From: Ctenosaura bakeri
Taxonomy: Eukaryota; Chordata; Lepidosauria; Squamata; Iguanidae
Reading direction: 5' to 3'
Assembly: GCA_948474755.1 (NCBI GenBank)
Contig: CAOLHI010000483.1
Location: 1 to 64,000 of the forward strand
DNA length: 64,000 nt
The position numbers and the translations under genes are program-made. Positions within the stretch are counted from its first letter, which is position 1. Each line of letters opens with the position of its first letter. This document shows, piece after piece, positions 17,058 through 61,665 of this stretch. The notes under the pieces were generated by a model, which ran no database searches, was not told the DNA's origin, and saw only the letters and a list, made by a program, of their open reading frames with translations.

Positions 17058-17097
17058 AAATGTTGTATTGAAGAAGAGCTCTACAGATACCCTAGAC

Positions 17098-18201
17098 CAG
17101 TGGTTCTCAACCTTCCTAATGCCATGACCCTTTAATACAGTTCCTCATGTTGTGGTGACCCACAACCATAAAATTATTTATTATTTACAATGCCTCCCCC
17201 CCGCTCCGGCAAAGGCCGTCTCGCCAGCCAGGAACAGGGGGGACGGGCAGGGAGAGAAAGAGGAGCCGCGCATCTACCCCGGGAAAAAACTCCGAGACCC
17301 CCCCGGGCTCTGCTTCTGCTTCGATCTTGTTTCTGCTGTGGGGGGCAATGTGGGAAAAGTTTCCAGAGTGTCGACCCTGGCTGGGGGGGAGGAATCCCAG
17401 CACCTTTGTCTTTTGCACCGGGCACAGCTTGCCTCCCCGGAAAAGCACCGCCTTGCGGCCCCCCGGCTCTTCTACAGCACCCCTCTCTGTGGCAAGTGGG
17501 GCAGGGGCTGTGGTGAGGAGGGGGCCTGCCTCCCGTGCTGCCGCCGTCCCCCCAAGCTGGTCCATCAGACAGGAGGTTCTCCCAGTAGCGGAGAAGGGAA
17601 GCAATTTCAGTCCCTTCTGAACAGGGGGCAGGAGGACACGGGTGCGTGGCTCGAGCTTGTGCACCACCACTTCTGGGCCTTTTCCGCACGTTACCTTATC
17701 GCAGAGGTGGGAGGTGCCGTTCGCGCAAGCAGGTTCTTGCGCGAGGCGCTCTCTTCGCTGCTCCTTCATCCCGCAGCTGGCTTCCTGGTTGCGCAACCGC
17801 CCCTTCCTTCCTTCCCCAGTGCAGCCTACAGCTCCCAGGCTGCACTGTGGAAGGAAGGGGTGGGGTGGTTGCGTGACCAGGAAGCCAGCTGCGGGACGAA
17901 GGAGCAGTGAAGAGAGCGCCTCGCGCAAGAACCTGCTTGCGCGAACAGCACCCCCCACCTCCACGATAAGGTAACATGCGGAAAAGGCCCAGGAGTGCTG
18001 GTGTGCAAGCGCGAGACAGGCGCTCCCACCAAAGGGGGCAGGAGGACATGAGCGCGTGGCTCACGCTTGCGCACCACCACCGAGGAGAGAATGGAGCCTA
18101 AAACCATTGGAAATACGTATTTTCTGATGGTCTTAGGTGACCCCTGTGAAAGGGTCGTTCGACCCCCAAAGGGGTCGTGACCCACAGGTTGAGAACTGCT
18201 G
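17098..18201 (-). mobile_element. SPIN-like hAT transposon, large non-autonomous form
   Basis: The ends CAGTGGTTCTCAACCTTCC and CAGGTTGAGAACTGCTG match SPIN (Space Invader) hAT termini. Subterminal landmarks are also SPIN-like: GTGGTGACCCACAACCATAA on the left, GGTCGTTCGACCCCCAAAGG on the right, and a hairpin CCTAAAACC...GGTCTTAGG at 18097-18136. The 8-bp duplication is CCCTAGAC/CCCTAGTC (17090-17097, 18202-18209; 7/8). The inside is strongly GC-rich, shared in inverted orientation with 55634-56415, and contains a palindromic insert at 17674-17991. No transposase is seen. SPIN is known for horizontal transfer among tetrapods. Confidence 0.95.
17674..17991. mobile_element. Near-perfect 318-bp palindrome (MITE/foldback) inside SPIN
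   Basis: The ends TGGGCCTTTTCCGCA and TGCGGAAAAGGCCCA are exact inverses. The arms stay paired through GCGCAAGCAGGTTCTTGCGC and CCTTCCTTCC to a centre at about 17832 (CAGTGCAGCC...GGCTGCACTG). The corresponding point of the other SPIN copy (near 55845) has no such insert, so it entered this copy or its lineage separately. Family unknown. Confidence 0.85.
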
Positions 18202-18534
18202 CCCTAGTCTGCTAGAAAGACAAATGAATAGGTCCTACAGCAAATCAAACTCAAATGCTCTCAAGAAGCCAAGATGATTAAACTGAGACCTTTATACTTT
18301 GGCCCTATCATGAAAAGACATAATTCACTAGAAAAGACAATAATGCTTGGTAACGTAGAATGCAGTAGGAAAAGAGAAAAACCACATCACACATGGATAG
18401 ACTCCATCAAGGAAACCACAGCCCTGAGTCTGCAAGACCTGAGCAGGGCTGTTGATGATAGAGTGACTTGCAGGTTTCTCTGCCGTAGAGTAAGCATAAG
18501 TGAAGGTCAGTTTGGCTGCAGTTAACAACAATGG

Positions 18535-50320: not shown

Positions 50321-50574
50321 CATTAGAGCAGTGGTTCTTAACCTGGGGTCCAGGGACCCCAGGGATCTGCAGAGCCCTCAAAGGGGGTCTGCAAAGCCCT
50401 GCTGGGGACACCAACATCAGTGGCAGTAACAGGGATGCAGCAAGGGGAGGGGGCTGCAGGTGCTGAAACGCTCCTTTGTTTGCAACCAAGGAAGCTGTTT
50501 GGGCATATGCACACATATCCCCTGCTGCTACATCCCTGATGAAAGGGACATGGCAACAGGTGTGTATGCATCCA

Positions 50575-50650
50575 AACTATGACTCTGGAGACCAGGGTCT
50601 GAATTCCCAATTGGCCATGAAAATCCACTGGGTGACCTCAGGTAAGTCAC
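50575..50650 (+). mobile_element. SINE fragment, plus strand
   Basis: GACTCTGGAGACCAGGGTCT, AAAATCCACTGGGTGACCTC. Only the middle of the tRNA-derived SINE remains. Confidence 0.8.
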
Positions 50651-50828
50651 ATTCAAGTCACTTTTGAATTATGTCAACCCTAAAATGAATCCATTACAGC
50701 GTTTTGTTTTTTAGGGGGGGCAAAATTTGTTCAGAGGGGTTTGCCTTTGCCTTCCTCTGAGGCTGAGAGAATGTGACTTACCCAAGGTCACCCAGTAACT
50801 GAGTAGGGATTTGAATCCTAGTCTTCAG
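50651..50828 (-). mobile_element. SINE fragment, minus strand
   Basis: TTCAAGTCACTTTTGAATTATG, TTTGTTCAGAGGGGTTTGCC and GGTCACCCAGTAACTGAG. It abuts the plus-strand fragment, forming an inverted pair inside the hAT element. Confidence 0.85.
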
Positions 50829-50967
50829 AAGCCTTTAATGAATAAATACATATATGAATCTTCAGAAGCCTTTAATAAATAAATGCGTATATGAATATGT
50901 CTCCAGCAACAAATTATATTTACAGGGGCTCCCTGGTAAAGCAAGGTGAAGAACCACTGCTTTGGAG

Positions 50968-51384
50968 GGTTGCTAACAGGCAGTATAGAAACTGAAGGGC
51001 CCAGCTACAAGGGAATTTAGATATCCTAGACATTGCTGTGATTGTGATCTCAGAATTTCTGCTCTCATGTTAAGCAGCTCACATAGATACCTCACATCAG
51101 TGGGTAGGATAAAGTGTCAACAAAAGAGAAAGAAATGTATGAAGGGGCTCTGCTTCTGGGTCACACACAGGGTTTTCATTACCATCATGAGGACTAGAAA
51201 ATTTCTTTCCTTTTGTTTTGTTTAAAAGTATGAAAGCTAAAAACACAGAGTGTCCTAGTTTAGCATGCTGCATTGTTATTTGCTACATCTATATGCAACA
51301 TGTGGGATGTGCAATCAGAATCACCCACTTGTTTAATAACAACCAAAGTGGTAGGATAGGCACATGTCAGATTAGGGATGTGGT
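50968..51384. other. Single-copy sequence, no gene seen
   Basis: No repeat similarity or coding signal recognised. Confidence 0.4.
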
Positions 51385-55599: not shown

Positions 55600-56890
55600 G
55601 GGATTCCCTTCTCCCTGCTTGGATCTTCTAGAGCAGTGGTTCTCAACCTGTGGGTCGCGACCCCTTTGGGGGTCAAATGAGCCTTTCACAGGGGTCGCCT
55701 AAGACCATCGGAAAATACATATTTCCGATGGTCTTAGGCTCCATTCCCTCCTCCGTGGTGGTGCGCAAGTGCAAGCCACGCACTCGCGTCCTCCTGCCCC
55801 CTTCAGCAGGAGCGCGTGCAGCCACAGCGTCACCACAGCAGGAGTGGTGGTGCGCAAGCATGAGCCATGCGCTCGCGTCCTCCTGCCCCCTGTTCAGAAG
55901 GGACTGAAATTGCTCCCCTTCTCCGCTACCGGGAGAACCTCCCGTCTGACGGGTCAGCTTGGGGGGCAGTGGCAGAACGGAGGGCAGGCCCCCTCCTTGC
56001 CACGGCCCCTGGCCCACTCGCCACAGAGGGGGGTGCTGTGGAAGGGCCAGGGGGCCGCAAGGCAGCGCTTTTCCGGGGGGGGCGAGCTGCGCCCAGAGCA
56101 AAAGACAAAGGCGCTGGGATTCCACCCCCCCCGCCAGGGTCGACACTCTGGAAACTTTTCCCACACTGCCCCCCCAGTGGAAACGAGAGCGAAGCAGAAG
56201 CAGAGCCCGGGGGGGCTCGGAGTTTTTTCCTGGGGGAGACGCGAGCTCCTCTTTCCCTCCCTGTCCACCCCCCCCGTTCCTGGCCAGCGAGGCGGCCTTT
56301 GCGGTGGGGGGTGAGGCATTGTAAATAATAAATAAATAATTTTATGGTTGGGGGTCACCACAACATTAGGAACTGTATTAAAGGGTCACGGCATCAGGAA
56401 AGTTGAGAACCACTGTTCTAGAGGCCACTTGATACCTTATCCTAAAATGTAAGTTTCACTTTTCTTATGATTTTCCATTTTTGTGGCCAAACCTATAGAT
56501 CTGTGCTTTTTAAAACATGTTTGAGATAGCGGTGAGGCAGGCTTGTCTGCTCTCCTCTTGTCTTTCTGTTCCACTCTTCAAGCATGCTCAGTAACGGATT
56601 TTAGTCTTTGTTTGTTGTAAGCCAAGGCAGGTGGCTACAGCTGGATTAGTTAGAGGAGAATCCCATTCTTTCTGCTCTCAAGTTTTGTTTATTGCATTGT
56701 CTGTTGAAGACAAGCTATTACAACGCACCACAGAAAGTCTGTGTTTTTCCTTCACCATCCTCCCCGTGCCAATACTAGACAGCTGGACTTTCAACTAGAC
56801 AGAGGACAAAGAGGAAAGGGGATGAGGGATGAGATGGGAGTAAAAAGCCTTTGTGAAAAGGAGCTTCACTGTCAGAGGTTTTGTTAAGTG
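55600..56890 (+). repeat. Unclassified repeat (family G), copy 3, split by SPIN
   Basis: CCCTTCTCCCTGCTTGGATC precedes SPIN and AGAGGCCACTTGATACC follows. Then TTTTCTTATGATTTTCCATT, TGTGGCCAAACCTATAGATC, GCAGGTGGCTACAGCTGGAT, CTCAAGTTTTGTTTATTGC and AAAGGAGCTTCACTGTCAGAGG match copies 1 and 2 at 30-31 kb. Confidence 0.75.
55634..56415 (+). mobile_element. SPIN-like hAT transposon, GC-rich non-autonomous form
   Basis: The 782-bp element starts CAGTGGTTCTCAACCTGTGG, with GTCGCGACCCCTTTGGGGG, and ends AAAGTTGAGAACCACTG. It has a perfect 8-bp duplication TTCTAGAG (55626-55633, 56416-56423). A perfect 40-bp hairpin CCTAAGACCATCGG...CCGATGGTCTTAGG (55699-55738) and GGTTGGGGGTCACCACAACA at the right are SPIN signatures. 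Two GGTGGTGCGCAAG...CGTCCTCCTGCCCC units (about 55756 and 55847) precede a GC-rich body matching the inverted 17.2-17.65 kb element. No transposase. Confidence 0.96.
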
Positions 56891-56899
56891 AGGTGTCCC

Positions 56900-58349
56900 T
56901 GGATTGCTTCCAGTGTCAAAGGCAATGGCCTCTCAATACTAGTTGCCAGGGAGTGAAAACAGTAGAGAGATTTTTTGCTCTTGTCACTGTGGGGTGCCAC
57001 AGGGTTCTGTCCTGGGCCCAGTGCTATTCAACATCTCCATCAATGACTTGGATGAAGGAATAGAGGGCATGCTGATCAAATTTGCAGATGATACCAAATT
57101 GGGAGGGGCTGCTAATATGCCAGAGGACAGGATCAAAATTCAAAAATGTTGGGAATTAAAGAGTTTCCCAGGGTGTCAGCCCTATTGGGAAATTCTATGG
57201 AAACGAAAACTGTAAGCATTCAGCCTCCTTTTGGCAGAGCAGCAGAAAAAGCATGCCCAAATTTGTATGTGTGGCTTTTCTTATCTGAAACTGACTGAAG
57301 GAACAAAACAAATGCAAGCAGTTTCAGGTTACAAATTTAGAAAAGTTCACTAATAGCTTTGACATTTACATATGTATTGGGGAACCAACATCCTAACTAG
57401 CTAATGAATAGTAATAGCTTCGTTGTTAACTCACCATCTTCTGATGGAGATGCAAAGCATGGAGGAGGAAGAGGAAGCAAAAAATGGAGGAGAAGAGAGA
57501 CAAAGGATCTGAGAAGGGGTCTCTGCTGGAATTTTTCCAACAAAAATGAACTTAACAGATTGGAGAGCTGGGCCAAAGCTAACAAAATGAATTTCAACAG
57601 AGAGAAATTTAAGGTCCTACACTTTGGCAGAAAAAATGGAATGCACAAATATAGGATGAGGGTCACGTGGATGGATAACAGCACATGTGAAAGGGATCTA
57701 GGAGTCTTGGTAGACCACAAGCTGAACATGAGTCAGCAGTGTGATGCAGCAGCCAAGAAAACCAATACAATTCTTGGTTGCATCAATAGGAGTATGGTGC
57801 CTAGATCAAGGGAGGTAATGGTACCACTCTATTCTGCTTTGATTAGACCTCATCTGGAATACTGAGTCCAGTTCTGGGCACCTCATTTCAAGCAGGATAT
57901 TGACAAGCTGGAACATGTCCAGAGGAGGGTGACCAAAATTGTGAAGGATCTGGAAGCCATGCCCTATGAGGAGCAGCTTAGGGAACTAGGTATGTTTTAG
58001 TCTGCAGAAGAGAAGGTTAAGAGGGGACATGATAGCCGTGTTTAAATATTTGAAGGGATGTCAGGTCAAGGAGGGAGAGGGCTTGTTTTCCGCTGCTCTA
58101 GAGACTAGGACAAGGAGCTATGGATTCAAACTATAGGAAATGAGATTTCACCTGAACCTCAGGAAGAACTTCCTGATGGTCAGACCTGTCTGGCAGTGGA
58201 CGATGCTGCGAGTGTGGTAGAGTCTCCTTCTTTGGAGGTTTTTAAACAGAGGCTGGATGGCCATCTGTTGGGAGTGCTTTGACGTGGGTTCCTACATAAC
58301 AGGGGGTTGGACTGGGTGGTCCCTGTAGTGTCTTCACCTCTATGATTCT
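56900..58349 (+). mobile_element. CR1 LINE, 3' part, split by a solo LTR
   Basis: The pieces are about 56900-57146 and 57548-58349. The first encodes [20 protein letters not shown] and [12 protein letters not shown], the RT palm with an FADD form of the catalytic box. The second encodes LNRLESWAKANKMNFNREKF, ERDLGVLVDHKLNMSQQCDA, NTILGCINRSMVPRSREVMV and the later KYLKGC and LRKNFLM blocks with frameshifts. It ends near TATGATTCTAGGATT. Dead, 5'-truncated. Confidence 0.93.
57147..57542 (-). mobile_element. Solo LTR (family LTR-5), internally deleted, inside CR1
   Basis: TGTTGGGAATTAAAG opens and ATTTTTCCAACA closes it. The flanks are AAAAA and AAAAT (4/5). Compared with 16463-17057, about 200 bp are missing between GAAGGGGTCTC and TGCTGGAATTTTT, the part that holds the TATA box in the 38-kb copy. 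Confidence 0.9.
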
Positions 58350-61234: not shown

Positions 61235-61665
61235 TTCCAGACTGATCTAAATGAGTGTGAGCTCACGTGATATAGCCCCTTGTGTTTTGCTGGGTTTTCT
61301 TGTCACCTCCACATCTAGTTATCCTATTCTTTTTGAAGACTGTTTGTACTAATCTCTTGGATGTGCATTCAACCTTCTTCTAAAGGTCTAGATACCAACA
61401 AACCCCCTTTGAGGGCTCCATCCCCCCCCAGGGGTCTGTGGAGCCCAGGTTAAGAACCACTGCTATAGTGTCTTTTCAGCTACACACTATAGCACTAATA
61501 CTCCTCGCTCAACAAATAAGAGAGAAAAGGAAACATTTTTTTATTCTAATACATCTTGGAATTAAAAGGAAACCCACTTGAGGATGGGAATTAAATGCTG
61601 CAGCTAGTGCTAGGAACGGCCAGAAAATGGTCCAGGACAACAGAAAAATCATTTGGACTTTTTTT
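61235..61665 (+). repeat. Unclassified repeat (family F), with a hAT scrap inside
   Basis: CCAGACTGATCTAAATGAGTG, TTATCCTATTCTTTTTGAAG, then the hAT scrap, then GAATTAAATGCTGCAGCTAG, TAGGAACGGCCAGAAAATGG and GGACAACAGAAAAATCATTTGG align in order with 53195-53675. Confidence 0.65.
61395..61468 (-). mobile_element. hAT end fragment
   Basis: The minus strand reads CAGTGGTTCTTAACCTGGGC, then GAGCCCTCAAAGGGGGTTTG, matching the left end of 50329-50959. Only ~70 bp remain. Confidence 0.75.

Follow-up and report, generated by a model that had tools for sequence, protein, structure and literature searches.

SPIN (Space Invaders) hAT transposons have been reported as colonisers of many squamates (PMC11008031). 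They are placed in the Buster family, and the target site duplication (TSD) consensus printed for another of its members, TcBuster, is nnnTAnnn (PMC3499496). Outside this branch, the maize Ds2 elements described in a paper on Ac/Ds have an average length of ~1.4 kb, to which retrotransposon insertions contribute in some of them, and are filled with unrelated sequence that is occasionally derived from genes; the same paper calls gene capture a rare feature of the hAT superfamily (PMC3260210). Such elements are in general a familiar type, and by the measure of Ds2 as described there the size of the two elements reported here is in itself unremarkable among non-autonomous hATs. The short derivatives of SPIN, for their part, are presumably AT-rich and a few hundred bp long.

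Two complete hAT insertions

The window (the whole stretch of DNA analysed, 64,000 nt) contained two non-autonomous hAT elements of SPIN type, which were recognised by their terminal inverted repeats (TIRs), their TSDs and their homology to each other. Element e1 (1104 bp; 17098–18201, minus strand) and element e2 (782 bp; 55634–56415, plus strand) lie in opposite orientation with ~37 kb between them. Their TIRs are 16 bp long, with 14/16 positions matched in e1 and 15/16 in e2. The ends of e1 are CAGTGGTTCTCAACCT (17098–17113, plus strand) and CAGCAGTTCTCAACCT (18186–18201, minus strand), and those of e2 are CAGTGGTTCTCAACCT (55634–55649, plus strand) and CAGTGGTTCTCAACTT (56400–56415, minus strand). 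Each element is flanked by an 8-bp TSD: CCCTAGAC (17090–17097) and CCCTAGTC (18202–18209) agree at 7/8 positions around e1, and TTCTAGAG stands on both sides of e2 (55626–55633 and 56416–56423; 8/8). This confirmed e1 and e2 as two complete hAT insertions, and the matching ends that an earlier sequence-only reading had described for both, as putative SPIN termini, were borne out. All three TSD sequences have TA at positions 4–5, which fits nnnTAnnn and hence the Buster branch, in what is a weak test with two insertions. A non-autonomous hAT should also lack a transposase gene, and in agreement no transposase domain occurred in the 10 scanned of 23 open reading frames (ORFs) and the body they share gave no clear coding signal.

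When the 16-base end was searched for with up to three mismatches, nine sites were found in the window against 0.97 expected, a count that was reached by 0 of 100 shuffles. Four of them are the termini of e1 and e2, three (50329, 50944, and 61447) belong to a different hAT-like family, and the other two (27413 and 31345), with three mismatches, are possibly due to chance. The different family comprises an element at 50327–50961, with the ends CAGTGGTTCTTAACCT and CAGTGGTTCTTCACCT and imperfect 8-bp flanks (6/8, judged by eye), and a solitary end at 61399–61464 (82% over 66 columns). The first 34 bases of the former match the e2 end at 86%. Its interior contains two oppositely oriented fragments of one repeat, which also has matches near 2.2, 7, 23, 26.5, 28.3, 42.3, 51.6, and 63 kb.

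A literature search, with the main SPIN papers outside its scope, returned nothing describing the e1/e2 element by title or text, and the 20-base end sequence had no match in the literature searched. The family may already be present in Repbase.

The shared GC-rich body

Both elements follow one order: a left end with a subterminal hairpin, a 48-bp repeat, a palindrome (in e1 only), a second 48-bp repeat, a GC-rich body and a right end. The left terminal segment of e1 (18081–18201, minus strand) aligned with e2 55634–55754 and its right terminal segment (17098–17184, minus strand) with e2 56325–56415, the right-end region being 94.6% identical over 93 columns. The subterminal hairpins were claimed for both elements by the earlier reading, and folding agreed with it: e2 has a perfect 18-bp stem with a 7-nt loop (55697–55739; −32.2 kcal/mol), and e1 has a decayed version of the same hairpin (18097–18137; −16.3 kcal/mol). 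The direct repeats are located at 17623–17670 and 18033–18080 in e1 and at 55755–55802 and 55844–55891 in e2 (spacing 89), and the two copies are 88% identical within each element.

The body spans 17185–17660 in e1 (minus strand) and 55855–56324 in e2 (plus strand), with 86.98% identity over 476 columns (E 2.6e-160). The sequence-only reading had set 17185–17660 against 55860–56330 and had named a failure of the two bodies to align as fatal to its proposal; they align at 87% over the 476 columns, and only the span in e2 was corrected, to the one given here. The alignment scored 554 bits; in a set of 500 dinucleotide shuffles the best score was 28.3, and 223 shuffles produced a match of any kind. 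In blastn, with e1 plus one extra base as the query, e1 and e2 matched at 87.5% over 583 columns (body and right end) and at 87.1% over 186 columns (left part). The G+C content of the body is 0.639 in e1 and 0.676 in e2 against 0.428 for the window, and its CpG observed/expected ratio is 0.49 and 0.53, respectively, against 0.18. At E ≤ 1, the window outside e1 and e2 held only one match to the body, of 14 bases (51145–51158, E 0.30).

Because two separate insertions, each flanked by a TSD and having ends of identical type, contain the body, its mobilisation together with the ends as a unit is well supported, which is what had been proposed; the sample consists of two copies, both within one 64,000-nt window. 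The body was seen in the company of such ends alone, and thus we infer, rather than observe, its status as captured cargo.

Between e1 and e2, 98 of 777 aligned columns differ, and 44 of those 98 are among the 120 columns in CpG context, which indicated that CpG decay accounts for a large share of the divergence. The non-CpG distance is 0.088 overall, 0.045 for each end, 0.084 for the body and 0.182 for the segment adjoining the palindrome (55743–55820), the four regional values omitting 23 of the 777 columns (55821–55843), where the alignment is poor. The ends and the body did not differ significantly outside CpG (8/184 vs. 31/395; Fisher p 0.15, this test and the three below having been picked after inspection of the data and their p values being uncorrected), as is expected of a unit of a single age. 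Nominally, however, the ends are less diverged than the body (0.045 each vs. 0.084), which counts against the single-unit reading. Divergence is higher in the segment adjoining the palindrome than in the ends (9/59 vs. 8/184, p 0.008), and therefore e1 and e2 may stem from different source copies, or the alignment there may be partly wrong.

The body is most likely non-coding. A coding role was judged unlikely because all six internal indels between the two bodies (6/6) have lengths that are not multiples of three; moreover, each of the six frames contains one to three stop codons in one copy or the other, and pN/pS ranges from 0.63 to 1.04. There are long open frames, of up to 291 aa in e1 and 222 aa in e2, and three frames of the body have pN/pS values of 0.63–0.68; the putative cause of both is a bias towards transitions together with the GC-rich composition. 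Among the 23 ORFs of at least 50 aa listed for e1 and e2, the 10 that were scanned contained no hAT transposase domain, and their sole Pfam match was PilA (E 0.03; 15.1 bits vs. a cut-off of 28.5), which was rejected. For two of the 23 ORFs, no protein relatives were found at E 0.001 (4329 and 845 candidates; 5.8 billion proteins), and the same two had no match in PDB at E 1.

As a positive control, the CR1-like ORF at 57401–57862 retrieved 104 proteins among 119 candidates (Anolis, Podarcis, Varanus, turtle, and bird). This indicated that reptile proteins are present in the database, although an untranslated body would still escape such a search. The control ORF is a fragment of a CR1-like reverse transcriptase, and its top-scoring relative comes from Anolis, at 75% identity and 69% query coverage; other lizards, a snake, turtles, and birds rank lower. 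On the evidence of this single ORF, the host is probably a squamate. Many of its matches came from short ENA contigs of ~0.5–1 kb, which may, at a guess, be reptile sequence that ended up in assemblies of environmental samples or of low coverage.

The palindrome of e1

The extra length of e1 is a palindrome of 378 bp (17644–18021), which folds end to end with arms of ~184 bp and a 9-nt loop, and which e2 lacks. Comparison of its arms over 184 ungapped columns gave 20 differences, and arms of 173 nt without gaps are 87% complementary. Part of the 48-bp repeat recurs, inverted, as one of the outer arms. At the corresponding junction in e2, ~20 bases match e1 poorly, a weak observation made by eye.

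Rfam had no match in the window at the gathering score. At a loose threshold there were 23 matches in e1 and 4 in e2, all below their gathering scores, and a structured RNA gene was rejected on this ground; the best in e1 was MIR820 (17745–17920; E 2.2e-15, 89.7 bits vs. 196 needed). Such loose matches on the palindrome were taken as what any long hairpin yields. ARAGORN, run with the bacterial code, found no tRNA.

Outside CpG, the palindrome arms differ from each other to nearly the same extent as e1 differs from e2 (13/150 vs. 54/657, p 0.87), which suggested that the palindrome dates roughly to the common source or to the split of the copies. Divergence is higher in the outer parts of the arms than in the inner parts (7/29 vs. 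13/155, p 0.02), and so the palindrome may have arisen stepwise, in two events; a single fold-back explains this difference poorly. Either the palindrome was gained in the e1 lineage or it was lost from the e2 lineage. Long palindromes are unstable and the e2 junction is poorly matched, and for these reasons loss is a little likelier.

A doubtful alternative is that the palindrome is foreign to the e1/e2 family and represents a fold-back element or MITE of its own that is nested within e1. The lack of a palindrome in e2 and the closer similarity of the inner arms (p 0.02) are consistent with nesting. However, no target duplication was evident by eye around the inner edges, and the outer arms extend into the 48-bp repeat that belongs to the family, one of them as its inverted copy, so that the palindrome is made in part from the element. 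Elsewhere in the window, the matches of the palindrome were all short and fell on a GGAA tract.

Origin of the body and comparison with known elements

The explanation that we regard as probable is that e1 and e2 represent a non-autonomous hAT family of Buster/SPIN type that moved in trans, its interior having been replaced by unrelated filler. The name SPIN is tentative and follows from an apparent resemblance of the terminal and subterminal sequence to SPIN termini, together with TSDs that fit the Buster-type consensus. The ends, ~100 bp each, would be bound and cut by a hAT transposase supplied in trans from an autonomous relative elsewhere in the genome, a presumed enzyme whose 8-bp target sites would have TA at their centre. 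The GC- and CpG-rich filler was probably taken up a single time, earlier than the insertion of e1 and e2, by faulty gap repair after excision, with the copying strand switching to an unrelated template. Fold-back copying could likewise be the source of the inverted duplications, namely the subterminal hairpin and the palindrome of e1. Errors of post-excision repair have been suggested as a capture route in the maize Ac/Ds paper (PMC3260210).

Two other origins of the body were considered. The body could be flanking, non-coding sequence that belongs to a SPIN-like autonomous transposon, with e1 and e2 as ordinary derivatives by internal deletion, and internal deletion is described as a source of non-autonomous elements in maize (Ds-del; PMC3260210). 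That origin is unlikely, however, given that the transposase domain is absent from the 10 scanned ORFs of the 23 and that the body has 64–68% G+C and a CpG observed/expected ratio of ~0.5. Such a composition differs from that of SPIN interiors, which we take to be AT-rich. The body could instead be a piece of a host CpG island or gene that was taken up in the host lineage; this would be a special case of the replacement by filler rather than a competitor to it. Its CpG ratio (0.49 and 0.53), far above that of the window (0.18), is what such a fragment would have, and the window has no repeat-like copies of the body elsewhere. On the other hand, the two ORFs of 23 that were searched had no protein or PDB match and there is no clear coding signal, although a promoter or an untranslated source would escape both. 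A host fragment is a tentative assignment of fairly low probability. Far less probable is a wider reading, in which a squamate hAT/SPIN family acquired sequence resembling a CpG island, perhaps that of a different species, multiplied it as cargo and could have transferred it between species along with the transposon; we give it a very small chance.

No match was found in viral contigs (seven patterns) or in bacterial and archaeal genomes (two patterns) by scans that needed exact runs of 23–35 bases, or in plasmids and phages with e1 alone as the query. These scans required exact matches, and the collections are not meant for reptile genomes; thus the viral and prokaryotic negatives say little about the origin of the body. 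Should the source of the body prove to be a gene or a different species, the family would represent uptake of cargo by a type of element that is known to pass between species. For now, the family is a subfamily of repeats that deserves an entry in a library.

Compared with SPIN, e1 and e2 are apparently alike in their TIRs and subterminal sequence, and they have the 8-bp TSD with a central TA. They would differ from the short SPIN derivatives in a GC-rich interior of at least 0.5 kb, which in one of the two is accompanied by a palindrome. The maize Ds2 elements, as described, resemble them in that the termini are kept, much of the interior is unrelated filler, and movement occurs in trans (PMC3260210). 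However, Ds2 belongs to the Ac family and not to Buster/SPIN, and its filler is variable in all 39 Ds2 elements of that account, with one type found twice, whereas e1 and e2 have one common body (PMC3260210).
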